Source: Tetrahymena thermophila SB210
Taxonomy: Eukaryota > Ciliophora > Oligohymenophorea > Hymenostomatida > Tetrahymenidae
Length of the DNA stretch: 64,000 nucleotides
Direction of reading: 5' to 3'
Assembly: GCF_000189635.1 (NCBI RefSeq)
Contig: NW_002476244.1
Location: 62,001 to 126,000 of the forward strand
The notes under the pieces were generated by a model, which saw only the letters and a list, made by a program, of their open reading frames with translations, was not told where the DNA came from and ran no database searches. Made by a program: the position numbers and the translations under genes. Positions within the stretch are counted from its first letter, which is position 1; each line of letters begins with the position of its first letter. Below are positions 2,028-60,909 of this stretch, in pieces.

Positions 2028-5000
2028 TGATAATAAGTAAATAATAATTAAATGTAATTTCAAATATAATTAATAATATAATTAAAATCTAAATTACTTA
2101 ATAATGATAATATATACGATTAGTAGATATTTAAAATATAATAAAAATAAACATTTTTAATTTACTTTATACATAAATTAAATGCTATTCTTATCTGAAA
2201 TTAATTTGAAATTTATTTTTAAATTTCTGTAGTACGTTAAAAAATAGAAATAACTGTGCTACCAGAAAGTCAAAAATGATGATCCCCTTAATAAAAATTG
2301 GTTTTAATAATAAAATTATACAAAAATGCATAGATAGATAGATTCATTTATTATATCTGCTTGTTTTTATCTTAGAATTCATTTGTGTTGTACATTAAAG
2401 TTTAAGATGATAATCAAACAAACTAATGAAATTAGCTTTAATTAAATTATTATTAACAGCTTTTATATGAATTTTTAAACAATAAAAATTAAAAATCTAT
2501 CTTTAAAAGTTATTAATTATAATGTAAGATACGTCTTCAATAAAATATTTCTTATTAATTTACTTAAATTTTAATTATGTTTTAATATTAACCTACATTC
2601 AAGTCTTTTTAAAATAATAATCAATTTTTGAGTTTAAAAGAATTCATTTCTGATTACAAAAGTTTATTTTCAATTTAGCTATTTTTATCCATAAAAGTAA
2701 TAACTTATTTATTTATTTATTTTTTACTTTTGACTTATTGTTAAAACCTAATTTTAAATTATAAAAATGTTTTTTAAATTTCAAATTATTATTTTTATCA
2801 TTATCATATTTATTAATTAATTGTCAATTAATAGCTTGATGTTAAAGTTTTTTAGTTAAAATAAAATTGAAATTTAATTCTTAATTTTAGTGAAAAACTT
2901 TAATTTTTAATTGCTTTACAATACAATTTATTTTGATATGAAATTTGTAAAAACCAATATAAATGGTATAATTTTTATAAACCTTTAGATTATTTATACA
3001 CCATAGGTTAATGATAGGAATGATTCTGTCTTTTTATTTTTTTATGACTTTGGTCTTTTTCTAAAAAACAGATAAAATAATAGTTTTTACTGCTTTATAA
3101 TCATGGTAAATATGATAATTCAGTATTTATAAAAAAATATTTGATTATTTTTAAATTTAGTAAAAATAGACTTAAAAGTCTTTAAATTCTTACATAATTT
3201 CTCAACTTAATAAACTTTTATATATGATTTAATATAAATTAATTTAATAATTAATTATTACATTTTTTTCACATATTAAAATTTTATTTTATATATTTTA
3301 ATCCATCATTTTTTTCTTTAAATAATGAAAAAGTTTTAAATTGCTGATAATTTTTAATTTTTAGTACCAACTTATTATTCTAATTCTAAAAAAAATTTAT
3401 TGTTAATATCCAATTTTTTTCAATTGATTATATTAGCTTATCTTTTATTTTTGGCTTTTCTATTGCTACTAATTTCTTGAGCCACCAAAAATATTTTTAA
3501 TAGGGTTAATAAATGGGCTATTTGAAGGTTATTCATCTAATCTTTTGATTTTTAGAACTATATTTTTTGTTCGCTCTTGCTTTAATAATTTAAAATTTAT
3601 TTTACTTTTTCATAAAACTGATCTTAATATTTTGTATTTTGTTTTTTAGATGTCTATATAAATATTTTTTTTTAAGTTTTAACAAATTTTTTCAATTAAA
3701 AATGATAAATAAATAAATAAATCACTTATTTTGTTTTTTAAAAAGTAAATTTAAATAGATTTGCTTTAAGAATAAAAGTAAAATTTTAATTTTATTTATT
3801 TATGAATTATTGGGCAAACATTAAGTAAAGTAGATTTAATTAAAACTTTTGTATAATGAATTCATTCTCTAATACATATATCAAATATTGATATAGAAAG
3901 AAAAATTGATTATTTTTACTCAAACATTCTTTCAGTAAAACAATAGATTTTTAGTAAGCTAATAGCATAAATCTAATTTTAATTCTTTTATTAATAAAAG
4001 TTAAACAGTAAATAGAATCGTTGTTTGAATAGATTAAACAATTTAAAATCTATTAAAAAGCTAGAAAATGAAAATTAAATGCATATTTTAAGTACAAATA
4101 AATTTAGCTGTACATTAGATATTTCTTTTAATAAATACATTTTCTAAAGTAATAAAAAGAGTTATTTATAATTGTCAATTTTTGAGAGATTAGTTTACCA
4201 TTTTTATCCTTAAAAAATAAAAATCTGAATTTTAAAATACTTACTGCTTTATTCAAATAAATATTATATTTGCGAAATAATTTTATTTAACGAAAAAAAT
4301 TAGAATAAATCTAGAATCCAATATATTTGCACATTTTAAAAGTTTTTTGTTCTTACTTACTATTTATTGATTAATTGCATGCATGATTTATCGCTTATTA
4401 AAATAAATATAGATTTGAATTTCGAAATTTCATCTATTTAAAGTAAATTAAGATTATTTTGAATAATTAAGTTTACCTTATTCATAACAAAGTCAATTTA
4501 TAAAAGAAAAAAAATTTAGTTTTTTCAAAACAATAATCTGGAATATGTGAGAGTAGTTTGAGATAAAGTATTTAGATTTTTTACTAGAAAAACAGTTCAA
4601 GTAATGCTTACTCGATTTAATTTTTTAAACTTAATAAAATATATAATTTGAAAAGGGAATGAAATAGCTATCTTTTCAATTTATTAAGCAAATTTATTAT
4701 TCAAATACAACATAAAAATATATTAAATAGTAAATCAAAATTAAAAATACTATTAAATTTTAGTGTATAATAGCATAAACTAGTATTATTATTATTATTT
4801 TTTCATGGTTAATAAATAATATTTGATAAGTAATCTGCTTTCATGGTTATTAATTTATTATTTACAATTATCAATAAATATTGTTTTAAAAAAAGTATAA
4901 TGATAACAACTATTATGTATAATCAACACACACACCACTTATTTTTTTATTAGTATCTTATCTTCTTATTATATATTTATATTGCATATAGTTATATGGT

Positions 5001-49385: not shown

Positions 49386-52300
49386 TCAAGATTCCCATAT
49401 AATTCTGACTATTTTTCCATCATTTTCAAGATTTAGAACTGTGTTGAAAGCAGCATATTAACTCACTTTTTTATTTTAGCAATATGATTTAGCTATTGCT
49501 CCTAATATTCCTTGGCTCATTAGCTAAGATCCTGAAATATATATTTTAACATTTGATTCTTTTTCATCTATGTGCTCTATTAGTTAAGAAAATTGATCCA
49601 ACTAGCTTTCAAGGAGAAGTTGAATTGAAGAAGTATTATTTTTAGTTGATATGTTACTGATAGAAACACTTTCTAATTAAATTTTTTCGCTTTTGTTATC
49701 TCTAGAAGAAATTTCCATGTTATTTGATGTTGTTAGAGCAACTTCTAATTTTTTTAGTATTCCTTCTTTCTCGAATTCTTAGAGTTCATTTTGATAAAGA
49801 TACTCATTATTTTAAAGTAAGCGAGATCCATAATACAAATATATTTCATGATTATGGCAATTGTTTACTTATCTTATTTCTTACAAGTATGATCTAAAAA
49901 ATCCTATACCTTCATCAATACATATTAGTACAACACGAATATTTATTTCGTTTAGCGGTAATTAAAAAGGGTTTGGACTGCTTTTAATTCTTACTTCTTA
50001 TGGTTTTTATTTTTGAATTTCTTAATAAAGATCTAAAAAATAATTTGAAATCAACCCAAGGCTTCTGGTTTCCATAGGATTAGATACTTTAGCTAATGAA
50101 TTATGTCTAGATTTTGCTATTTCCTCTTCCTATACTTCTGATTTCCTTAATCTATTTGATGATGCCTAAAAATTCTCTGTTATTTCGTCATTAAGTTTAG
50201 GAATGTTACGTAGATGAATTCTTACGGTTAATTGTATTATATTTGGATTTTGTAAAAAGCTTGAACTGATTATGAAAGTTCTTGGTTTTATTAAATTACC
50301 AAGTCCAAAGAGAATATGAAATGGAACTTTGATGTTATAATTAATAATGAGAGATAATAACGAGTGTTATTCTTGCTCATATATTTCCTTATCGAACCTT
50401 TCTCTTTCACTAAATTTGCAGATATTATTTAGTGTTTCTTTGTCAACTTAATCGCTAGCAAAATTTGCTAACTCAAAGACTTAATTTTTGTCAAGTTTAC
50501 CATGAATATCAAGATATTCTTTCATATATTATTTCACTGTTATAGGGAACGGGATAGGATATTTTAATTCAGAAACAGTGATATTGCATGGGTTGTAGCT
50601 TTATTCTTTGATTGATAAACTAATGACAGCATTTTCATTTAGTCCTAAAAATTCGCAAAGTCTTTTTATGCTAGCGTCATCGTTTTAAGGATAAATTTGA
50701 ATTAATCCTCCTGTTTCGAATTTAGGTTTACCAGGAGGAGATGGTAACTTGGAAACATCAAGGTCAATGAGCATGTATTAGTGTTGTTAATTGAATAGCT
50801 TAGAGCTAATTCCTTATCTAGAGGCATGCGCAATAACATTACTCTGACTTTGTTAAGTGTATGAATGTACAGTAATTGTATCCTTAATACCATCACATAC
50901 AAGATATTGCATTTTTAAAATGGGAACATCTGTTGAATTGAAATAGTCCCATAGCTCATCTTTTAATACATATTGACCTCTGCTTTGTACGTTTTTAATA
51001 TTAAACATTTATTCAAGTTCCTTTCGGTTATTTGCTCCTTTTGGTAACTATATTTTATTAGTTTAAAATAAAATTTATAAACGATACTTTAATAAATTGT
51101 AAGCTAAATTTTATTTAATTAACAATTCATAAAATTTTGAAATAATTTATTGATATTTTTATTGTCTATTTTTCTATAAACCAAATTTGATGATTTTACT
51201 GACTACGTTCATAAACAGAAGATATTTATTTAGATCTTTAAATTTAGGTAAGTCAGTCAAATCAAGATATGAATGAATTTTAATTTAGTTATTTTTTTTG
51301 ACAATAATAGATATATATTTGGGTGTGATAATAGAAAATATTATTAAAGATAAATTTGAGTAAAAAATGTATTTTATAATTAATTAGAAGAATTATTAGT
51401 TAATTTTGGTGATATTGAATTTGGTTAGTGTAAATAAAATTTCTATTTTACTTTATCTATAGAGCAAATATATATGTTCAAATTATAAAGTAGGGCTTCG
51501 TTATATATAGCATCCTCTGGCTTTTCTTGAAACTCAAATTTTTATGTAAGGAGAGTTATCATACCATTTTTGAACTAATTAAAACTTTCTTTTAAAAGTT
51601 CATCCTTAGAGCTATCTACCTATACAAAATTGTAAAATCTCTTAGCGCCTACTTCCTAGAATAGCATATCTATTCTCTAGCCCATTGATTTTATTTTAGT
51701 TTATTTTTTATTCATGGCTTTTTAAAACCTTACGCTTTAATTCATATTTGCTTCAATTTCTTCATTATCTTACCTCTAACTATTCATATTATTATTTATA
51801 TAGCTACTGGGTTCAATATTATTTGTGCTATCTACTTCAGTATCATGATTTGCGTTTGTTTGAACTGTTAATTTCTTCATTTTAGAGTTGTATAAGCCAA
51901 AAATACTATAATTTAAAGAGGAAAGAGGTTTACCCTAGTTGTCAAAATTATTTAGCCACAAATAAAATTACTGGGCATCATCTGTAGGACCACCCATAAT
52001 TCCATAGCTAGCTAAAAAAAAGATAACTAAATTGCAATTTCTAAGCATTTTAGGCTCAAATGTCTGTATATGAATTACTCTTACATAAAAACCATTTTAT
52101 TCGCATTCACTTGCAAATTAAGTGGCTAACTCACTAGTCGTACCTTGCGTAGTCCCATAAAAAATATTTAAAACGGCTCTTTATTTAATGTTTTTCCATT
52201 TTATCTCATTGCCTCTCATTTCACTGCCTCTACTATTATTTAATGGATTGACTGGACATTATACGCTTTCATAATTTTATTCTTTTTTTGTCGAATTTTA

Positions 52301-52528
52301 GGTTTTGCTTTGTGAGCTGTTAAGTTTACCATTAACATTTGAAGCTGAAGTATTCTAAGTAGATTGCTGCTAAGTATAAACATTATTCCCTATAGATTTT
52401 TTTTTCTACTCATTTAGTTCAGGAGATTATACATCATTGGGTATCGCTTAATTTTTTCCATACTACACTTCTTCTTCAACTATTTAATTATTTGTAAACG
52501 AGTTGCACTAACTTTGGCATGATCCCAT
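49386..52528 (-). CDS. NADPH-dependent diflavin reductase, possibly N-acylated
   Basis: Exons 52528-51452 and 51047-49386 (intron 404 nt, phase 0) give 912 residues. The start is the first in-frame ATG after a TGA and gives MGSCQSQC, which fits an N-myristoylation/palmitoylation signal. After a 110-residue polar linker comes an FMN flavodoxin domain (about 118-300; NIFYGTTQGTTSELATQFA, LASYGIMGGPTDDA). FAD and NADPH domains follow: KPRTFIISSSF (613-623, RxYS-like), GLISNYF (690-696), DEGIGFFRSYLQE (738-749, the GTGIAPFR position), YYGSRLLQNNEYLYQNEL, and a C-terminal Trp910. The order matches cytochrome P450 reductase and its relatives, which pass electrons from NADPH via FAD and FMN to haem proteins. 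The FAD and NADPH signatures are diverged and the linker is unusual. It is divergent from the multi-globin gene, its plausible partner. Confidence 0.87.
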
Positions 52529-53728
52529 ACTTTATTCAAATGAAACTGTTTTTCTATAATATGATAGTTCAATAAAATATATTTTATTTTTATAGTTTGG
52601 ATCTATTTAACAATTTTAAAATCACAGTAATTGCAGCTAATTATTTTTAAACCTATTATTCTTTATTAATTGAAATCGATTGATTGTATGTATAAAATTT
52701 AATAGCAAAAGTCTTTACTGAAAATTTGTTTTAGTAATTGGCAACTTTTATTCCAAACGAAATATAAAGTTTTAATAGGTGCATTTTTTTTCCATTTAAT
52801 AAAATACATCTTTCAGTACATTTGCTTATATCAATTTATTGTCAAATTATTATTGTTAAATCGAAAGTTAAAGTTTAAAGAATTCATTAAAATGCTAACA
52901 ATACACAAAATTGTTCTCAAAAAGTTAATTAAATCTAAATTCACTATTCATTCATTCACCCATCCATCCATACCTGTTTTAATTGTTTATATATAATTAA
53001 TCCAGCTTTTATAATAAATGTATTTTAGTTCTGCTTCTATTTTATTCCTTCAAATATTAAAACTATTAATTTTTTAATTAGATATGAAAATGATAAAATT
53101 AAAATATTAAATATAGTTAGGTACGTACTAACTACTTTATTTAAGACCATTTATTTATTAAAATAAATTAAATAATTTTTTGATTTTTATCTTCACTTTA
53201 ATTCTACAAAAAATCATTTATTGTAAAAAGATATTATACACTAACTAACATACGTTAATAAATATTTTAAGCTGAAATAAATCGGATAAGCTCATCTTTC
53301 GATTTTCAATCAAGCTGATAAATTATTTACAAATTGAGAAGCATTTATATATATACCATGCCATTTTTAATTTTTGAATCAGTTTACAAATTTGAATTAA
53401 AATAAACGATTTTTCTTTCTGTTATTTTGTTATTTTTACTAAAATAAAATATAAGAAGGAGTTGAAACAGGTTTCCATAATACAATTAATTATGTGCGTT
53501 AAATAATTTATAAAACATAAACTGTGTAAATTAACAAAGAATGAGTAAATTGTATTTAGAATTAGAAATAATTAATTCATTTACTAAGATTAATTAGTTT
53601 TGTTGACTTGAGAAGCAATAAATTAAATAAAAAGAAGATTAATATTAAATAATCATTAATAATTCAAGTTAAAAGCAAGGCAATATTTTTTAATAAACCA
53701 ATTAAAATTTAAGGTTAAGGAGATAAAA
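52529..53728. promoter_or_regulatory. shared divergent 5' region of reductase and globin genes
   Basis: 1.2 kb between two outward-facing start codons, with no coding sequence recognised. It contains CATT/CATC short repeats near 52949-52977. The arrangement would allow co-regulation of the two genes. No specific factor site can be named. Confidence 0.4.
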
Positions 53729-56700
53729 ATGGGAAATTGTTACGAAACTAAGAGGAGTTAATATAATTATGATGATAATACAATAGATGCACCTACTCCT
53801 GAATAAAGTAAAAAATATTTAAACTATTTTAAATATTATTTATTTTTGACTGAGTAGGATTTTGATTTTTCGTTAGCCGAAGAAATTGATAGCTCAAAAT
53901 TGTTTGCTTTTTATAAAAAATGCAAAATAAAATCTTAGACTGATAAACTTTAAATTATTATTTAATAAATTATTAGAATCTAGGCCCAGAGAGCGTACAT
54001 AAAATGAAACTTCCATGAAATTTATTTCTTAACAAGCTGATGATGATAATTACTTTGGTACGCAAGATGATTTATAAAAATTCATGGAAGTTCCGAAGAA
54101 AATGATTAGAAAACAAGCTCCTAAATTTGAAGCAAATGCATACCATGATGGATATAATGATAAAGTTAAAAAGATTAGTTTAGATGATTATTAAGGCAAA
54201 TATTTAGTGTTATTTTTCTATCCATATGACTTCAATAAATAATTTCAAGAAGAAATTCTTGACTTTTCAGAGAACTATCCAAAATTTAAGAAATTGAATT
54301 GTGAGTTATTAGGATGCTCAATAGATTCTCACTTTTCGCATATGAATTATTGTAATAAGCCAAGAAATGAGGGCGGCCTAGGAAACATTAATTTTCCATT
54401 GATGGCTGATGTAGATAAAAAAATAGCAGCTGACTATGGTGTATTAAATAAAAATGGAAACGATTAAGGAACTTGTTTAAGAAGCACATTTATCATAGAT
54501 GACTAATAAATAGTTCGTCATTTGGCTATGAATGACTTTGCAGGGCATCTCAGAGCTGAGGAAATATTAAGAATGGTGAAGGGAATTTAAGAAAATGATA
54601 GAATTAGACCAAAATCACAAACTGCAGGTAAATAAATAAATAAATGAATCAATAAATTATTTTTAATTTTACTAATTTATTGCTCTTAGATTCATAAAAA
54701 TATGCAATTAAATGTAGAAATAAAATTTATAAATAATTTCAAATTTACTTATAAAAATATAACATTTTACATATAATAATAAAAAAAAGCTGATAAGTCT
54801 TCTGCTAAGGAGGCTAAATAGGAAAGTAATAGTAAATCCTTTAGCAATTTACCTTCAAATAAAAAAACGATATTCGAAAAAATTGGAGGAGAGGAAGCCA
54901 TTGAAGCAGCAGTTAAGATATTTTATAAAAAGATGTTAGCAGATCCTAAGGTTTCCTAATTTTTTAAAGATATTGATATGACCAAGTAGCACTCTTAGTA
55001 AGTTAGCTTCCTTTCTTTTGCTTTAGGTGGTCCAAAAAAGTAATTAATACAATTTTTAAATTAATCTTGCAAAAAAATACTGAGAAAAAATTTTTTACAC
55101 AAAGATCAGCATAAAAATAAATAAAAATGAAAATGATATTAATTTTATGTTAACATTGTTAGATATGTAGGCAAAAGCATGAGAGATGCACATTAGTATC
55201 TTAGGTTAACTAATGCAGAATTTGATATTACTGTAGGACACTTAGTTTCTACACTTAAAGATTTAAATATAGACGAAGCAGTTATAACTGAGATTGGAAA
55301 AATGATTGAACCTTTAAGGAAAGATGTCGTTTTTACGTAATCAACATCTATATATGACTAAATTGGAGGTGAAAAAGCAATGGAATAAGCTGTAGAAATA
55401 TTCTATAAAAGAATGTTAGAAGATCCAAAAGTGTCTGGCTTTTTTAAACCAATTGACATGACTAAGCAAAAATAAATGTAAAAGGCATTTCTAGCTATGG
55501 CTTTAGGTGGACCTAAAGAGTATAATAAATTCATTTATATTATATTTTTTAAAAATATATTTACTATTTGGCATATTTAGGTACAAAGGAAGGAATATGA
55601 AAGATGCACATAGTCATTTAAATTTGACTGATGAACATTTTGATGTTACTGTAGGCCATTTGATTGGGACTTTGAAATAACTTAATGTAGATGATAAAAT
55701 TATAAAATAAATTGGAGTTTAGATTGAGCCTTTAAGAAAAGATATTGTCAGTTCTAAAGCAAGCCAACCATCTTAGCCTTAGCTGTAATAAAATATCTCT
55801 GTCTAATCACAAAAAGAGTAAGCACCAGCTAATCAGTAATCAAAAATTTTAACAGCTCCTGCTCCTTAACAATAGCAAAAAAATAAACTGCTAATAGATA
55901 GAATTGGAGGAGAAGCAAAAATAGAGGTTTTAGTAGGTTTACTAGTAGATAGAATTTATTCAGATTAAAGAATTAACTCCTTTTTTGCTACTGTAGAGTC
56001 ATAGAAGCACAAAGAAACTTTGAAATCTTTCCTTATTTAACTTACAGGAGGTCCAAAAATGTATTTTAATTTACTTTTTAGAATTTTGATTTTAAGTTAT
56101 TTTTTAAATTTAAAAAGCTACAAGGGAAAAAATCTTCGTGAGGCTCACAGTGGATTAAAAATTAATGATGTCTAATTTAATGCATTCATGACACATTTAA
56201 GAGAAAGTCTCAAATAAATGAAAGTAGAACCATCTGTTTTTCATGATTTTTGTGGATTTTTTGAAAGTCTTAGGCCTTAAATTGTTACTGTGAAACTTTA
56301 AATTTTTGAGCGTTTAGGAGGTGAAGCTGCACTCAATAATCTTAGTGATAAACTTTATCAAAAAGTAACTGCTGACGATAGGATAAAAGACTTTTTTACC
56401 AATATAGATATGGTGAAAATGAGAGAACAGCAAAAAAATTTTCTTATGTTAGCTACAGGAGGTCCTAACATGTAAAATAATTTGCTTTAAGACAGTATTT
56501 TAAAACTAAATTTTTTAGGTATAAAGGTAAAAACATGAAAGAAGCTCATGCAAAATTAAAAATAAACGATTTACATTTTAATGCCTTTAAAGAGAATCTC
56601 TTACTTACCTTAAAAGAAGAATTAGTTGATCCATAAACATTCCTGGAAATCTCGAATTTAATTGAAACATAGCGTATGACCATCGTCACATAAAGTTTAC

Positions 56701-57994
56701 CTCTATTTGAAAGAATAGGAGGTGAAAAAGGTGTACAATAGATAGTTAATAGGTTTTATGATAGAATTCTTATGGATCCTAGAATTAAGAAATTCTTTTA
56801 AGGAGTAGATATGACTCGTTTAAGGGATATTAATCGTTAATTCCTTCTTTACTGTGTTAAAGGAGCTCCAAGGTAATTTTTATTTGGATTTAACAAACTT
56901 TAGTATGAAAATAAAATATTCTTAAATCAAAAGTTATAATGGAAAAAGCATGAAAGAAGCTCATATGCATCTAGGTCTTAATGATACACATTTCAACTTA
57001 GTTAAAGATCATTTACTCTAAGCCATGAAAGATTGTTCTAAGGATCCACTTAGTTTAATTGAAGTAGGTGGCACTATAGAAGGTTTACGTAGCGATATTG
57101 TATCTGTAAAAGTACCTCTTTTTGATAGAATAGGTGGTGAGCAAATCACAAAAAAAGCTGTGGAAAGGTTATATGTAAAGCTGCTAGCTGATGTAAAATT
57201 AAAAGATTTCTTTAAAACTGCTGATATGCAAAATTTAAAAAATAATTAATGTACTTTCTTCACTGTTATATTGGGAGGCCCGAATAAGTAATTTTACAAC
57301 AATTAGAAAACCTATAAATAAATATTAATCTTATTTAATAAAGCTATAAAGGAAAATCTATGAAAGATGCTCACTAAAATCTTAAGTTAAATGACTCACA
57401 CTTTAACATATTTAAAGAGTTGGTACAATAATCATTTAGAGAAGTTGGGGTTGATAATATCACAATTGCTGAAATAGCAAGAGTAGTCGAATAAATTAGA
57501 AAAGAAATAGTTTCAGTAAGACCTCCTCTTTATGAAAGAATCGGAGGAGAAAAATCACTTGAAAGTAATTCATTCATTCATAGATTTATTAAATTTCTAA
57601 ATTATTTTATAAAAAAAGTTATCATTGAGAAGTTTTATGATAAGTTAATCAAAAACCAAGCTATTGGTTAATTTTTTGTCAAAACTGATCCAATAAAGCA
57701 AAAGAATATGCTTAAAGCTTTCTTCACAACTATTTTTGGAGGCCAATAAATGTAAAAAAATATTCATAGTTAAAGATTATCTTTATAAATAAACAATTTT
57801 CAATTTAAAAAAGGTATAAAGGCAAAAAATTAAAAGATGCTCATGCTAATATGAAAATTACTGATGCATAATTTAATGAATTTAGAAGTTGCATGGAACA
57901 AACTTTAAAAGAAGTTAACTAGTTTAACGTTCAACTAATAAAAGAAGTTGCTGCTGTAATCGATCATTTTAGAAAAGAAATAGTTATTCCATGA
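53729..57994 (+). CDS. peroxiredoxin-like domain fused to seven truncated haemoglobins
   Basis: Eleven exons (53729-53901, 53939-54627, 54790-55039, 55163-55519, 55581-56060, 56118-56471, 56519-56872, 56934-57287, 57344-57564, 57619-57751, 57814-57994) give 1181 residues. Starts MGNCYETK. A 2-Cys-peroxiredoxin-like domain (about 118-285) keeps FYPYDF, GCSIDSHFSHMNY and EGGLGNINFPLMAD, but the peroxidatic site reads DFNKQFQEE where active enzymes have a TFVCPTE-type motif, so the Cys is Phe. Seven group-I truncated (2/2) globins follow, starting near residues 314, 431, 593, 710, 828, 946 and 1064. Each begins IxxRIGGE or similar, has a GGPxx turn in most copies, and carries the proximal His in (M/L)(K/R)(D/E)AH. 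A 45-residue Gln/Pro-rich linker separates globins 2 and 3. Likely role: O2/NO chemistry at a membrane (inference). Confidence 0.9.
56118..57287 (+). repeat. three 354-nt globin exons (118-residue unit)
   Basis: Exons 56118-56471, 56519-56872 and 56934-57287 are each exactly 354 nt, with the same phase at both ends. Each runs from the proximal-His half of one globin to the distal half of the next. This is the footprint of internal duplication with the intron carried along. Confidence 0.88.
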
Positions 57995-58956
57995 GCAGTT
58001 TTTATAGAGCTGTTTATTTAATTTAAATGAATAATAATATAATTGCAATATCAACCAAACAAGCAGCAGTTATTCAAAGTAATGTGTTGTATAAATTATA
58101 AAAACTAAATTAAAATTATAATTGGTCTTATTATTGAGTGAAATAGGATTTGTATAAAATAATGATTACCATCAATAAACCAATAAATCTTATTGCTTTA
58201 ACTATCAATTTTGGTTAAACTTTATCTAAGAATATAATTTATCTAATAAAAATAATATAGTTAATAAACTATCTATTATAAAAACATATAATCATCTTTC
58301 TATCTATCAACCTATCTATAATGTAAAAACTAAAAATATATTGTAACTTTTTATTCTCTTTGTATGTATAATCTTTCTTCAAATTTATAATAAAATATAC
58401 TTTATTATTTCTATTCTCATATTCTATTTGATTGTTTTGTATTAAGAAAATTTTAATTTTTATTCAAAAAACTACAAATTATTTTGCTTAATTTATGAAT
58501 GTTTGATATATTTTATTTTATTAGGTATAAAGATAATTTTTATAAAACCTTAGAATTGTATTTTTAATGGATCAAATATAAATTTTTAATTATGCTCTTT
58601 TATTTTAGTAAATTCTTTTAAAATTGCTATAATTAGTAAATATCTCATCGCTAAACAAATTATCAACTAAGAAACCAAATCAAAATCTATAAATTTTATT
58701 TATTTATTAAATATTGTAATATATTTATTTATATATGTTCTGTATTTAAGTTATTGTAGAATATTATAGAGATGTTTTAAGAATATACATAAAGCTAAAG
58801 ATATAAATTTAAATAAAAAATAAATTTCTGATATTCATTAAAAATTATTCTACCATATTCAAGAATTTGATATCTAAAATATACATCAAAAAACATAATA
58901 TAACATAATCATTTATTAAAGTTTATATAAAAGTTAGATTTAGTAAAACATGCTAA
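57995..58956. other. convergent intergenic DNA
   Basis: Between the 3' ends of the globin and SAXO genes. AT-rich; no gene recognised. Confidence 0.5.
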
Positions 58957-59793
58957 TCAATCCCAGTGATTTGTTTCTGCTTGATAATGGATATGATTTT
59001 TACCAGGAGAACAGTTACGAGGTCTGGGAGGTAATTCGTAGATTTTACATCTTTCTTTTTCATATGCATGCTATTTGTGCTTAATATAATCTTATTAGTA
59101 AGAAGTTTTTCCGTCGAATGGAGTAGAGTTGTGGTAAGTGTTAGATTTTTTACCAGAGTTTTCGGTTCTTGGAATGTCGTGCTAGATATATTCCTATTTG
59201 TAGGTTGAAGTTCCATTGAATGGAACATGAGTATTATTACCTGTCTAGGAAAGATATTTAGGTATATTGTGATCAGGTCTGTGACCTTCATGACCCTTAT
59301 AGCATTCTTGGTAAGTAGAGTTAGCGTTAAAGGGAACATTATATTAGTTTTTGTTAACGTTGTGCTTATAAGGCTAAGCAGGAGGGACGTCATTTTTAAT
59401 GTAGCTAACTTTATATTCAGTATCTCCATTGAAAGGAGTATTAGAATTAATATATGGATTCTACTCACGCTTTTAAGGAGGAGAAACCTTGTGAGGGGTG
59501 TAGTCATTTTAGTAATTACTTTTGATGAGATCTGGAGAGTAGTTTGTAGGAGCATACTTATGGCCTGATTTCTTAACTGGTTCTTTGTTAATATCATATG
59601 CAGGATAGTCATTCTTAAATGTGGATTTAATGATATCAGGAGCGTAGCTCATAGGTTTTGGAGGACATCTATGCTTATTACAAGTACAAATTTCACAAAC
59701 ACACTTACCAGAGATGTGTTAGTTTGGTGAATCAAAGCTGTAAGAGCTTTAATGATGGCCATTTTTTTAAGGGGTTTGATATTTAGCACTCAT
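58957..59793 (-). CDS. SAXO-family axonemal microtubule protein
   Basis: Intronless, 278 residues, starting MSAKYQTPQKNG and ending ETNHWD. A Cys-rich N-terminal motif CVCEICTCNKHRCP (residues 31-44) and a chain of repeated blocks of the form PFNGxTxYxxxYxxH (near residues 119-133, 153-165, 190-204 and 224-238) match the STOP/SAXO (FAM154) family. SAXO proteins bind and stabilise cilia and basal-body microtubules through such Mn-type repeats, with the Cys-rich N-terminus as the family hallmark. This fits a ciliate, whose cell surface is covered with axonemes. The sequence has few TAA/TAG-Gln codons and higher GC than neighbours, typical of a well-expressed gene. Two conventional ORFs on either strand here are shadows in other frames. 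Confidence 0.88.
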
Positions 59794-60909
59794 CTTGAAA
59801 ATCCTACTTAATATTTATTTATCTAAGCTTTTGTTATTCTTTTCCTTTTAGAGAAAAAAAAAATTTATTTATTTATTAATCAAATAATTACTTAAATAAT
59901 AAAATTTCTATGAACCAATTTCAATCAATCAATCAATAATTTGCGCATCCACTGATTGCTTATAAAAGTTATAAATATTGATTGTAAATGCATACATATA
60001 TATGCATAATCTCTAGAGAATTTAAGATCTCTTGAATGCAAATTAATTTTATAAATCTTTATTAATCATCATAATATCTAAACTGGCTCAAAATAAATAA
60101 TTACTCAAGGTTCTAATAAATTAATTGATTTGTGAATGCAAATGCTTAGAATAAATTTTGCCACTCAGCTAATTAATTAAATAAATAATAAATAAACTTT
60201 AACTTCGCAGATTTTTTAGACAGATTAGAAATTTTATTTATTGAAACTTATCAAAGAAAATAAATAAAATCTTGATTTTTTTTGTGGTTAATATAATCTT
60301 AAACAAATAATTTAAGTAGATTAAAACATTCTTGCTTCACCACAAGGAGTGTTAGGAGTATTTAAAAACTGTATGATTCTCTTATTAAGCTAAGATATTT
60401 ACTACACCATTCAAATTATTTTGTTTTATTTTTTTGAACCATTAATTTTTTTTATTATAAATAAAACAATGAAATTATAATTTTGAAAATATAAATAAAT
60501 AAATGATTTCATAAACACTTAATTCTATTGTTTGTTTGCTTGCTTGTTTTTTTCTTTATTGATGAGAAATTTAAATTTATCTATCTAAATCTTTGAAATA
60601 AACTTACTTTTATAAATTGAATATTATACCTATAAATATATAAGAAGATATACGAATAAGAATAAAATTAGAATTTCACTTTTTATTTTAGGAATAATTT
60701 ATTGTTTGTACATTTAGGTTAGTTATGTTGATAGAAATAAGAAGTATTGAATTCAGGATTAATCAATTTTCTTGACTTCTATTTATATAAATTATTAGTT
60801 TTTATATAGCTAGCAAATATAGATTTAAGTATAATTTTTCAGGTCATTATGCTTTTTTTATAAAATTATTATTTACTATACTTTTTTATTTTTCTATTTT
60901 TATTGGTTC
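59794..60909. other. intergenic DNA upstream of the SAXO gene
   Basis: AT-rich; contains the SAXO promoter side and the helicase 3' side. Nothing else recognised. Confidence 0.5.

Follow-up and report, generated by a model that had tools for sequence, protein, structure and literature searches.

The Tetrahymena thermophila SB210 window analyzed here (64,000 bp of contig NW_002476244.1) contains a single 11-exon gene of 1137 codons, read in the ciliate code and closed by one stop, that codes for a peroxiredoxin-fold protein followed by seven truncated hemoglobins, as the original prediction had described. The product, referred to here as the heptaglobin, starts with MGNC and continues with a single peroxiredoxin-fold domain, behind which come seven class 1 truncated-hemoglobin domains (G1 to G7; Table 1). 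Pfam PF01152 (Bac_globin) matches the spliced product in seven stretches (E 4.7e-131), the best spanning 1-119 of 121 positions, and the AhpC-TSA match lies upstream in the same frame. These E-values and the identical domain order at three loci indicate that the architecture is not a chance arrangement. There is no Rfam match at gathering thresholds in positions 50000-60000.

Table 1. Features of the heptaglobin locus and its head-to-head neighbor
Feature	Position	Strand	Basis
Diflavin (cytochrome P450 reductase-like) protein, MGSC start, ~912 codons, head-to-head	49386..52528	-	Pfam, PDB relatives
Intergenic stretch, ~1.2 kb between start codons	52529..53728	.	Sequence
Pseudo-peroxiredoxin heptaglobin gene, 1137 codons + TGA	53729..57994	+	Splice model, Pfam
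Heptaglobin exons 1-6	53729-53807, 53977-54627, 54790-55039, 55163-55519, 55581-56060, 56118-56471	+	Splice model
Heptaglobin exons 7-11	56519-56872, 56934-57287, 57344-57564, 57619-57751, 57814-57994	+	Splice model
MGNC start, dual-acylation-type motif, first ATG in frame	53729..53740	+	Sequence; MG(N/Q)C at both paralogue loci
Peroxiredoxin-fold domain (AhpC-TSA)	54105..54521	+	Pfam E 4.7e-35; PDB phmmer
Phe codon replacing peroxidatic Cys (DFTFVCPTE to DFNKQFQEE)	54243..54245	+	Alignments
Globin 1, split between two exons; B10 Y, E7 Q, E11 Q, F8 H	54867..55331	+	Pfam, pocket alignment
Globin 2; B10 Y, E7 Q, E11 Q, F8 H	55347..55749	+	Pfam, pocket alignment
Gln/Pro/Ser-rich linker, 46 residues, between globins 1-2 and globins 3-7	55750..55887	+	Sequence
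Globin 3; B10 V, E7 H, E11 L, F8 H	55888..56286	+	Pfam, pocket alignment
Globin 4; B10 Y, E7 M, E11 Q, F8 H	56299..56687	+	Pfam, pocket alignment
Globin 5; B10 Y, E7 L, E11 N, F8 H	56700..57102	+	Pfam, pocket alignment
Globin 6; B10 Y, E7 L, E11 Q, F8 H	57115..57512	+	Pfam, pocket alignment
Globin 7, spread over three exons with an additional intron; B10 Y, E7 Q, E11 L, F8 H	57525..57985	+	Pfam, pocket alignment

All 10 introns are GT-AG, and the nine that were retained unchanged in the final model are 83-89% A+T, compared with 68-75% in the exons of the first model. The lone in-frame TGA is at 57992-57994, and no stop lies between globin units. All six globin-globin boundaries fall inside an exon of the model, so that separate globin genes are disfavored, and this arrangement was rejected. 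Comparison of the three 354-base repeat exons gives differences of 0.58-0.69 at codon position 3, 0.47-0.50 at position 1, and 0.34-0.35 at position 2, the pattern expected of coding sequence. Intron 1 was placed at 53902-53983 in the first model and moved to 53808-53976 after comparison with the paralogue at C251, with which its phase agrees. It is the least certain join, as several alternatives stay in frame; the Bac_globin stretches also number seven with the earlier splice.

Two unlinked paralogues in the same genome, at C251 and C122, likewise code for a peroxiredoxin domain without its peroxidatic cysteine followed by globins, four at C251 and six at C122. The heptaglobin is thus not a lone case. 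No peroxiredoxin-globin fusion is among the matches listed in the open-licence literature. Intron 2 (54628-54789) sits between the peroxiredoxin domain and G1 and could in principle divide two genes. If it is retained, a TGA follows soon after the peroxiredoxin exon, as would be expected if adjacent peroxiredoxin and globin genes, not joined in one transcript, had been combined by annotation. However, C251 has the same order and an equivalently placed phase-1 intron, and at C122 a single uninterrupted stretch of 383 codons runs from the peroxiredoxin through globin 1 to the middle of globin 2; a two-gene split is therefore disfavored, and we regard it as highly improbable. At C122, no convincing splice links the MGNC exon to that of the peroxiredoxin, so that only the start exon defines the N-terminus there. 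Three acceptors were tried for the C122 intron at 4575, of which 4934 was kept, 4970 is also open, and 4953 breaks the frame.

The proximal histidine (F8) is present in all seven globins, within DAH in G1, G2, G6, and G7 and within EAH in G3, G4, and G5, as originally described. All seven also have Phe at CD1, and six have Tyr at B10. At the positions that we take to be B10, E7, and E11, the combination of Tyr, Gln, and Gln occurs only in G1 and G2, and the pockets of G3 to G7 are changed; the same Y/Q/Q pocket is common to three of the four single-domain globins found in the genome. This feature describes the O2/NO pocket and not the fold family. The high capacity originally proposed is in keeping with seven proximal histidines, but the Y/Q/Q pocket is confined to two of the seven domains. 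G3 to G7 repeat with a strict period of 118 residues. A domain tree, built to see if the arrays predate the three genes, leaves 15 of its 18 inner branches open, with only the G1-G2 pair starred; the seven window globins form no group in it, and several array domains are on long branches.

The closest solved relatives of the peroxiredoxin-fold domain are typical 2-Cys peroxiredoxins (Prx1/2/4 and relatives; phmmer against PDB, E ~1e-42), with which it shares the fold and much of its sequence. Unlike these, which have a peroxidatic cysteine, its associated threonine, and a resolving VCP motif, the window protein has none of the three, and its peroxiredoxin looks dead by sequence. The peroxidatic cysteine is gone from all three fusion members (Phe in the window protein, Ser at C251, and a degenerate loop without cysteine at C122), whereas VCPTE is kept at all four loci that the genome was found to have for peroxiredoxins standing alone. 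The DSHFSHMNYCNKPRNEGGLG stretch is still recognizable in two of the three fusion members (window and C251). VCP is present at the peroxiredoxin loci L013 and L015; in the window protein, there is no cysteine past the domain core that could act as the C-terminal resolving residue. C122 has a single cysteine, in CDP close to the end and not in VCP, and C251 has GCP seven residues past the place of VCP in L013, so that one paralogue may keep some thiol chemistry. The peroxide handling originally proposed for the protein finds no support in this domain, for which a peroxidase function was rejected because of the absent cysteine.

MGxC starts are myristoylation/palmitoylation-type motifs, and MG(N/Q)C is found at all three family loci and MGSC at the diflavin reductase. 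Of the 260 first-ATG reading frames of at least 100 codons across the window and both paralogue regions, two start with MG.C, those of the reductase and C251, a count that excludes the other two family start exons as too short. N-myristoylation rules favor Ser or Thr at position 6, which is E, Q, and N in the three globin proteins and Ser/Thr only in the reductase. The heptaglobin is probably tethered to a membrane via a putatively acylated start. The membrane location originally suggested is indirectly supported by the motif at the three family loci, with the reservation that the C122 start exon is unjoined to its peroxiredoxin exon.

The heptaglobin has no reductase domain by Pfam, but the head-to-head neighbor codes for a diflavin protein with clear FMN and FAD domains (Flavodoxin_1, E 9e-16; FAD_binding_1, E 8.6e-25). 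NAD_binding_1 matches less strongly (E 2.6e-4; 22.1 bits, the cut-off being 22), and SGSQ stands where CGDA would be expected, so the NADPH site looks diverged. The neighbor's intron (51451-51048) has two alternative acceptors, giving 925 or 903 codons. The stretch between the two start codons is possibly a control region common to both genes. A genome scan gives four Flavodoxin_1 and five FAD_binding_1 matches at four loci, the neighbor among them (two at C13 and one each at C3 and C264), and none on the contigs of the C251 and C122 paralogues.

The reading we favor, tentatively and at somewhat less than even probability, is that the heptaglobin is a membrane-tethered, multi-heme O2/NO-handling protein built on a pseudo-peroxiredoxin scaffold; it is supported by the seven PF01152 domains with their proximal histidines, the Y/Q/Q pocket of G1 and G2, the MG(N/Q)C starts, the lost cysteine, and the diflavin neighbor. 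The acylated MGNC start would anchor the polypeptide at the membrane, and the peroxiredoxin fold, having lost its usual peroxide reduction, may be retained as an assembly or docking platform, perhaps through oligomerization. The G1-G2 pair, with its class 1 pocket, would bind O2 and carry out NO dioxygenation, with the flexible Gln-rich linker joining it to the five-globin run, in which heme should still be bound but ligand affinity and redox state would differ. Oxy-heme would thus convert NO to nitrate at the membrane, and the ferric heme could be re-reduced, plausibly by the diflavin reductase. In the Tetrahymena pyriformis globin, the B10-E7-E11 network is described as important for bound O2 and NO detoxification (Igarashi 2011). 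Flavin reductases, whether fused or operon-linked, are reported as donors or likely donors to hemoglobins, including truncated ones, an accessory role of P450 oxidoreductase has been suggested for cytoglobin, and acylated membrane globins are on record (PMC3820574). Against this reading are the apparently diverged NADPH site of the neighbor, the GCP of C251, the lack of a reductase match on the paralogue contigs, and the lack of Ser or Thr at position 6. Moreover, with five of seven pockets off Y/Q/Q and no proximal histidine in two of the six C122 globins, not all units need be heme enzymes. A very doubtful extension has a dead peroxiredoxin decamer forming a ring scaffold that displays tens of truncated hemoglobins (up to 70 for the window protein) on the inner membrane face, fed electrons by the co-regulated and co-anchored reductase, a two-gene NO/O2 machine made of the parts that form flavohemoglobin elsewhere.

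The other readings start from the same features. Animal covalent globin arrays bind O2 for transport or storage, and seven heme sites per chain, each with its proximal histidine, would give capacity to a polymeric myoglobin acting as O2 store or facilitator on the membrane side. Such a protein would buffer O2 by the pellicle, the cilia, or the mitochondria and would not turn over NO enzymatically. Covalent arrays of this type are known as animal hemoglobins (PMC4503718), yet the heptaglobin pockets are diversified and not copied, a variety that a pure store would not need, and the diflavin neighbor points to redox turnover; we consider storage rather unlikely. The same pocket variety (Q, H, M, or L at E7 and Q, L, or N at E11) would suit a redox or gas sensor hub, in which heme domains of graded O2, NO, or peroxide affinity signal through the pseudo-peroxiredoxin as a partner-binding module. 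Loss of peroxiredoxin catalysis while the fold is kept fits such a role, as does the acyl-type start, but Pfam at E 0.001 shows no output domain (kinase, cyclase, or DNA-binding), and sensing seems unlikely. Finally, all or many of the globins could serve as spacers within an assembly of the cortex or the cilia, with heme binding incidental, as the strict G3-G7 period, the C122 globins without proximal histidine, and the long branches of several array domains might suggest; the window protein's retention of every proximal histidine and CD1 Phe, and of B10 Tyr in all but one domain, makes a mostly structural repeat quite unlikely.

Multidomain class 1 truncated hemoglobins of ciliates and green algae are reportedly covered by Vinogradov et al. 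2013, in which those of ciliates are, as a class, probably already listed. The best solved match to the queried exon (half of G1 and half of G2) is the class 1 truncated hemoglobin of T. pyriformis (PDB 3aq5-3aq9); 3aq5 is presumably this globin, in agreement with the title of Igarashi 2011. Over two printed stretches of 3aq5, G1 is 52%, G2 48%, and G4 46% identical, and the other globins are 29-40% identical. The T. pyriformis protein has the B10 Y, E7 Q, and E11 Q of G1 and G2 but is a single domain of 121 residues, whereas the heptaglobin has seven per chain, five with altered pockets. Animal polymeric hemoglobins are extracellular, are made of 3/3 globins, and are not known to carry a peroxiredoxin or an acyl-type start. 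Like the heptaglobin, they are tandem covalent arrays, described with nine domains in Artemia, at least 10 in planorbid snails, and 14-28 in another group (PMC4503718). The cryptomonad Guillardia theta is likewise described as having protist multi-globin chains, two chimeric proteins of 1060 and 1497 residues in which a putative cytochrome b5 start is followed by six globin domains (PMC4101818), although these are 3/3 globins, are fewer per chain, and follow cytochrome b5 rather than a peroxiredoxin fold. Flavohemoglobin and truncated hemoglobin-nitrate reductase fusions also pair a globin with a flavin reductase (PMC3820574), but on the same chain, whereas here the candidate partner is a separate, diflavin-type neighbor gene. 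Precedents thus exist for tandem globins, in animals, and for multi-globin chimeras, in a cryptomonad alga. In this family, all three paralogues have an enzyme fold that has lost its catalytic residue, with globins multiplying behind it. Knock-out and tagging are routine in Tetrahymena, making the role of ciliate hemoglobins, a long-standing question, directly testable.

The three fusion proteins hold 17 of the 21 globin domains found in the genome, counts that are lower bounds because the globins of C251 and C122 were absent from the ten matches of the first PF01152 scan. The single globin at C332 is divergent and without a near-identical PDB entry, and that at C291 is identical to the printed stretches of 3aq5 at 94 of 112 residues. 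Within the arrays, the 354-base exon is phase 2/phase 2 and codes for two half-globins from successive units, so that it can be duplicated without breaking the frame, and the intron at a matching place inside the globins suggests a route of array growth.

The window gene is a single gene whose product is a pseudo-peroxiredoxin heptaglobin, and the original prediction of seven globins behind a peroxiredoxin-like domain in one spliced frame is borne out, with all six globin-globin boundaries (G1 to G7, in order) lying inside exons. It was translated with TAA and TAG as Gln and TGA as stop; introns are 83 to 89% A+T versus 68 to 75% for exons (first model, from which the final one differs only at intron 1). 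In Pfam, the spliced product has one match to AhpC-TSA (E 4.7e-35) and seven stretches that match Bac_globin (E 4.7e-131).

Coordinates of the heptaglobin gene, its paralogues (on contigs C251 and C122), and its neighbor
Feature	Position	Strand	Description
Pseudo-peroxiredoxin heptaglobin gene	53729-57994	+	Splice model with 11 exons, 10 GT-AG introns, 1137 codons, single TGA
Diflavin reductase-like gene	52528 to 49386	-	Head to head with the heptaglobin gene; about 912 codons, one intron; MGSC start
C251 paralogue	C251:119328-123016	+	800 codons; peroxiredoxin plus four globins; MGQC start
C122 paralogue	C122:1008031 to 1004072	-	Peroxiredoxin plus six globins (own count; five stretches in Pfam); MGNC start

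Each of the seven globins is interrupted by a phase-2 intron at an identical site, after a GGP-type motif and before Y-x-G, so that inner exons run from midway through one globin to midway through the following one. Of these, three have a length of 354 bases (118 codons) and differ from one another most at the third codon position, and G3 to G7 start at residues 549, 667, 785, 903, and 1021, an exact 118-residue spacing. The simplest account is that the array grew by duplication of a phase-2/phase-2 exon, which would keep the frame. The single-domain globins on contigs C60 and C160 are interrupted at the same place, and those on C291 and C332 are not. Intron 2 (54628-54789), between peroxiredoxin and globin, is the sole junction of unlike domains that depends on splicing; a phase-1 intron occupies the corresponding position in C251, and in C122 a single uninterrupted frame runs from the peroxiredoxin through globin 1 to halfway into globin 2. 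Mid-globin introns measure 47 to 123 bases in the window gene, compared with 770 bases in C251 globin 1 (extracted locus L021, 5821-6590), where A+T-rich stretches such as TTTATTCAAGTAAATTTGTTGATTAGAAATATTTATTCAA recur.

The family was sought in the ciliate genome (101 Mb, 445 contigs; the window is C264:62001-126000) with a PF00578 scan, our own globin profile, and single-protein queries. Pfam supports the globins (C251, E 1.1e-42; C122, E 7.5e-54) and the peroxiredoxins (E 2.2e-30 and 2.2e-18, respectively) of both paralogues. All three fusion loci have an MGNC or MGQC start, that of C122 on an exon that could not be joined to its peroxiredoxin exon. Apart from the fusions, the scans found four single-domain globin genes (C291, C60, C160, and C332), and 17 of the 21 globin domains found belong to the fusions, these counts being lower bounds since the best candidates alone were scored and an initial PF01152 scan missed C251 and C122.

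The peroxiredoxin of the window protein looks dead. With the peroxidatic Cys position set by alignment to a solved peroxiredoxin and to other peroxiredoxin loci of the genome, this residue is Phe in the window protein (codon 54243-54245) and Ser in C251, and C122 has a shorter, degenerate loop there; the four Cys kept in the window domain include none at this site and none after the domain core. The eight places in the PF00578 scan are the three fusions and four stand-alone loci, one seen twice (L018 and L020), and a VCPTE-containing frame, the motif looked for, is present in all four stand-alone loci (L013, L015, L016, and L018). A GCP lies in C251 seven residues past the position of the resolving VCP in L013, and C122 has a CDP, so that the paralogues may retain traces of thiol chemistry. 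Both the LR-motif Arg and the stretch DSHFSHMNYCNKPRNEGGLG are retained in the window protein; the latter borders the decamer interface, which makes a scaffold role plausible.

All seven window globins have CD1 Phe and F8 His. Three further pocket positions (B10, E7, and E11) were read with the C291 globin and PDB 3aq5 as guides and are YQQ in G1 and G2, VHL in G3, YMQ in G4, YLN in G5, YLQ in G6, and YQL in G7. YQQ is present in three of four single-domain globins (C332 has KYS) and in none of the 10 paralogue globins; C122 globins 3 and 4 have no proximal His. A Gln/Pro/Ser-rich linker of 46 residues separates G1-G2 from G3-G7, so the two pocket classes match two architectural blocks. G1 and G2 share 61% identity and form the only array-domain group with starred support (95/95) in the domain tree, the remainder being unresolved. 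The C332 gene (L010, C332:383303-383647, minus strand) codes for a highly divergent single truncated hemoglobin with long N- and C-terminal extensions. The C60 and C160 globins (L011 and L012) have a hydrophobic stretch ahead of the globin, and by eye their N termini resemble membrane anchors, suggesting that membrane-bound hemoglobins may be common in this ciliate.

Vinogradov et al. reportedly state in a 2013 abstract that many of the class 1 truncated hemoglobins of ciliates are multidomain. No peroxiredoxin-globin fusion is among the literature matches listed, whose coverage lies mostly outside subscription journals. Among animals, globin arrays of nine domains are described for Artemia, and larger ones for snails (PMC4503718). 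According to PMC4101818, two proteins of >1000 residues in the cryptomonad G. theta carry six globin domains in total behind a putative cytochrome b5, whereas the window protein has a peroxiredoxin fold in this place. The tandem-globin protein is of a sort already known; relative to the matches listed, its partner domain and pocket diversity are new, and it belongs to a small gene family.

The start codons of the window gene and its diflavin neighbor are separated by 1.2 kb. The neighbor has flavodoxin, FAD, and borderline NAD domains, and among solved structures its FAD-NAD part is most closely related to NADPH-cytochrome P450 reductases; its flavodoxin part has an apparent low-complexity insert, and its NADPH-binding motifs look diverged. 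Genome-wide, four loci account for four Flavodoxin_1 and five FAD_binding_1 matches. With the genome taken to have roughly 25,000 genes, random placement would put one of four reductase-type genes beside one of three fusion genes with a probability on the order of 0.1% by our own arithmetic, for an adjacency noticed post hoc when other partners would have impressed too. The Flavodoxin_1 and FAD_binding_1 scans gave no match on the contigs of either paralogue, which counts against an obligate globin-reductase pair.

Taken as a whole, these features suggest, tentatively and at somewhat less than even odds, a membrane-tethered heme protein that processes O2 or NO, for which we infer every functional step. 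The acyl-type start would place it at a membrane with the dead peroxiredoxin as a platform, G1-G2 would be heme sites that bind O2 and oxidize NO as in T. pyriformis, G3-G7 would be sites of different affinity, and a flavin reductase would re-reduce the heme (compare PMC3820574, in which flavin reductases, fused or operon-linked, are described as donors or likely donors to hemoglobins, truncated ones included).

Elsewhere in the window, a minus-strand gene at 58957-59928 is related to SAXO/STOP microtubule-stabilizing proteins (PDB 8ou0, E 2e-11). Several long plus-strand reading frames at about 5064-30570 have common motifs, such as FLDIFGIGIxLRYMNK, and seem to form a local gene family.
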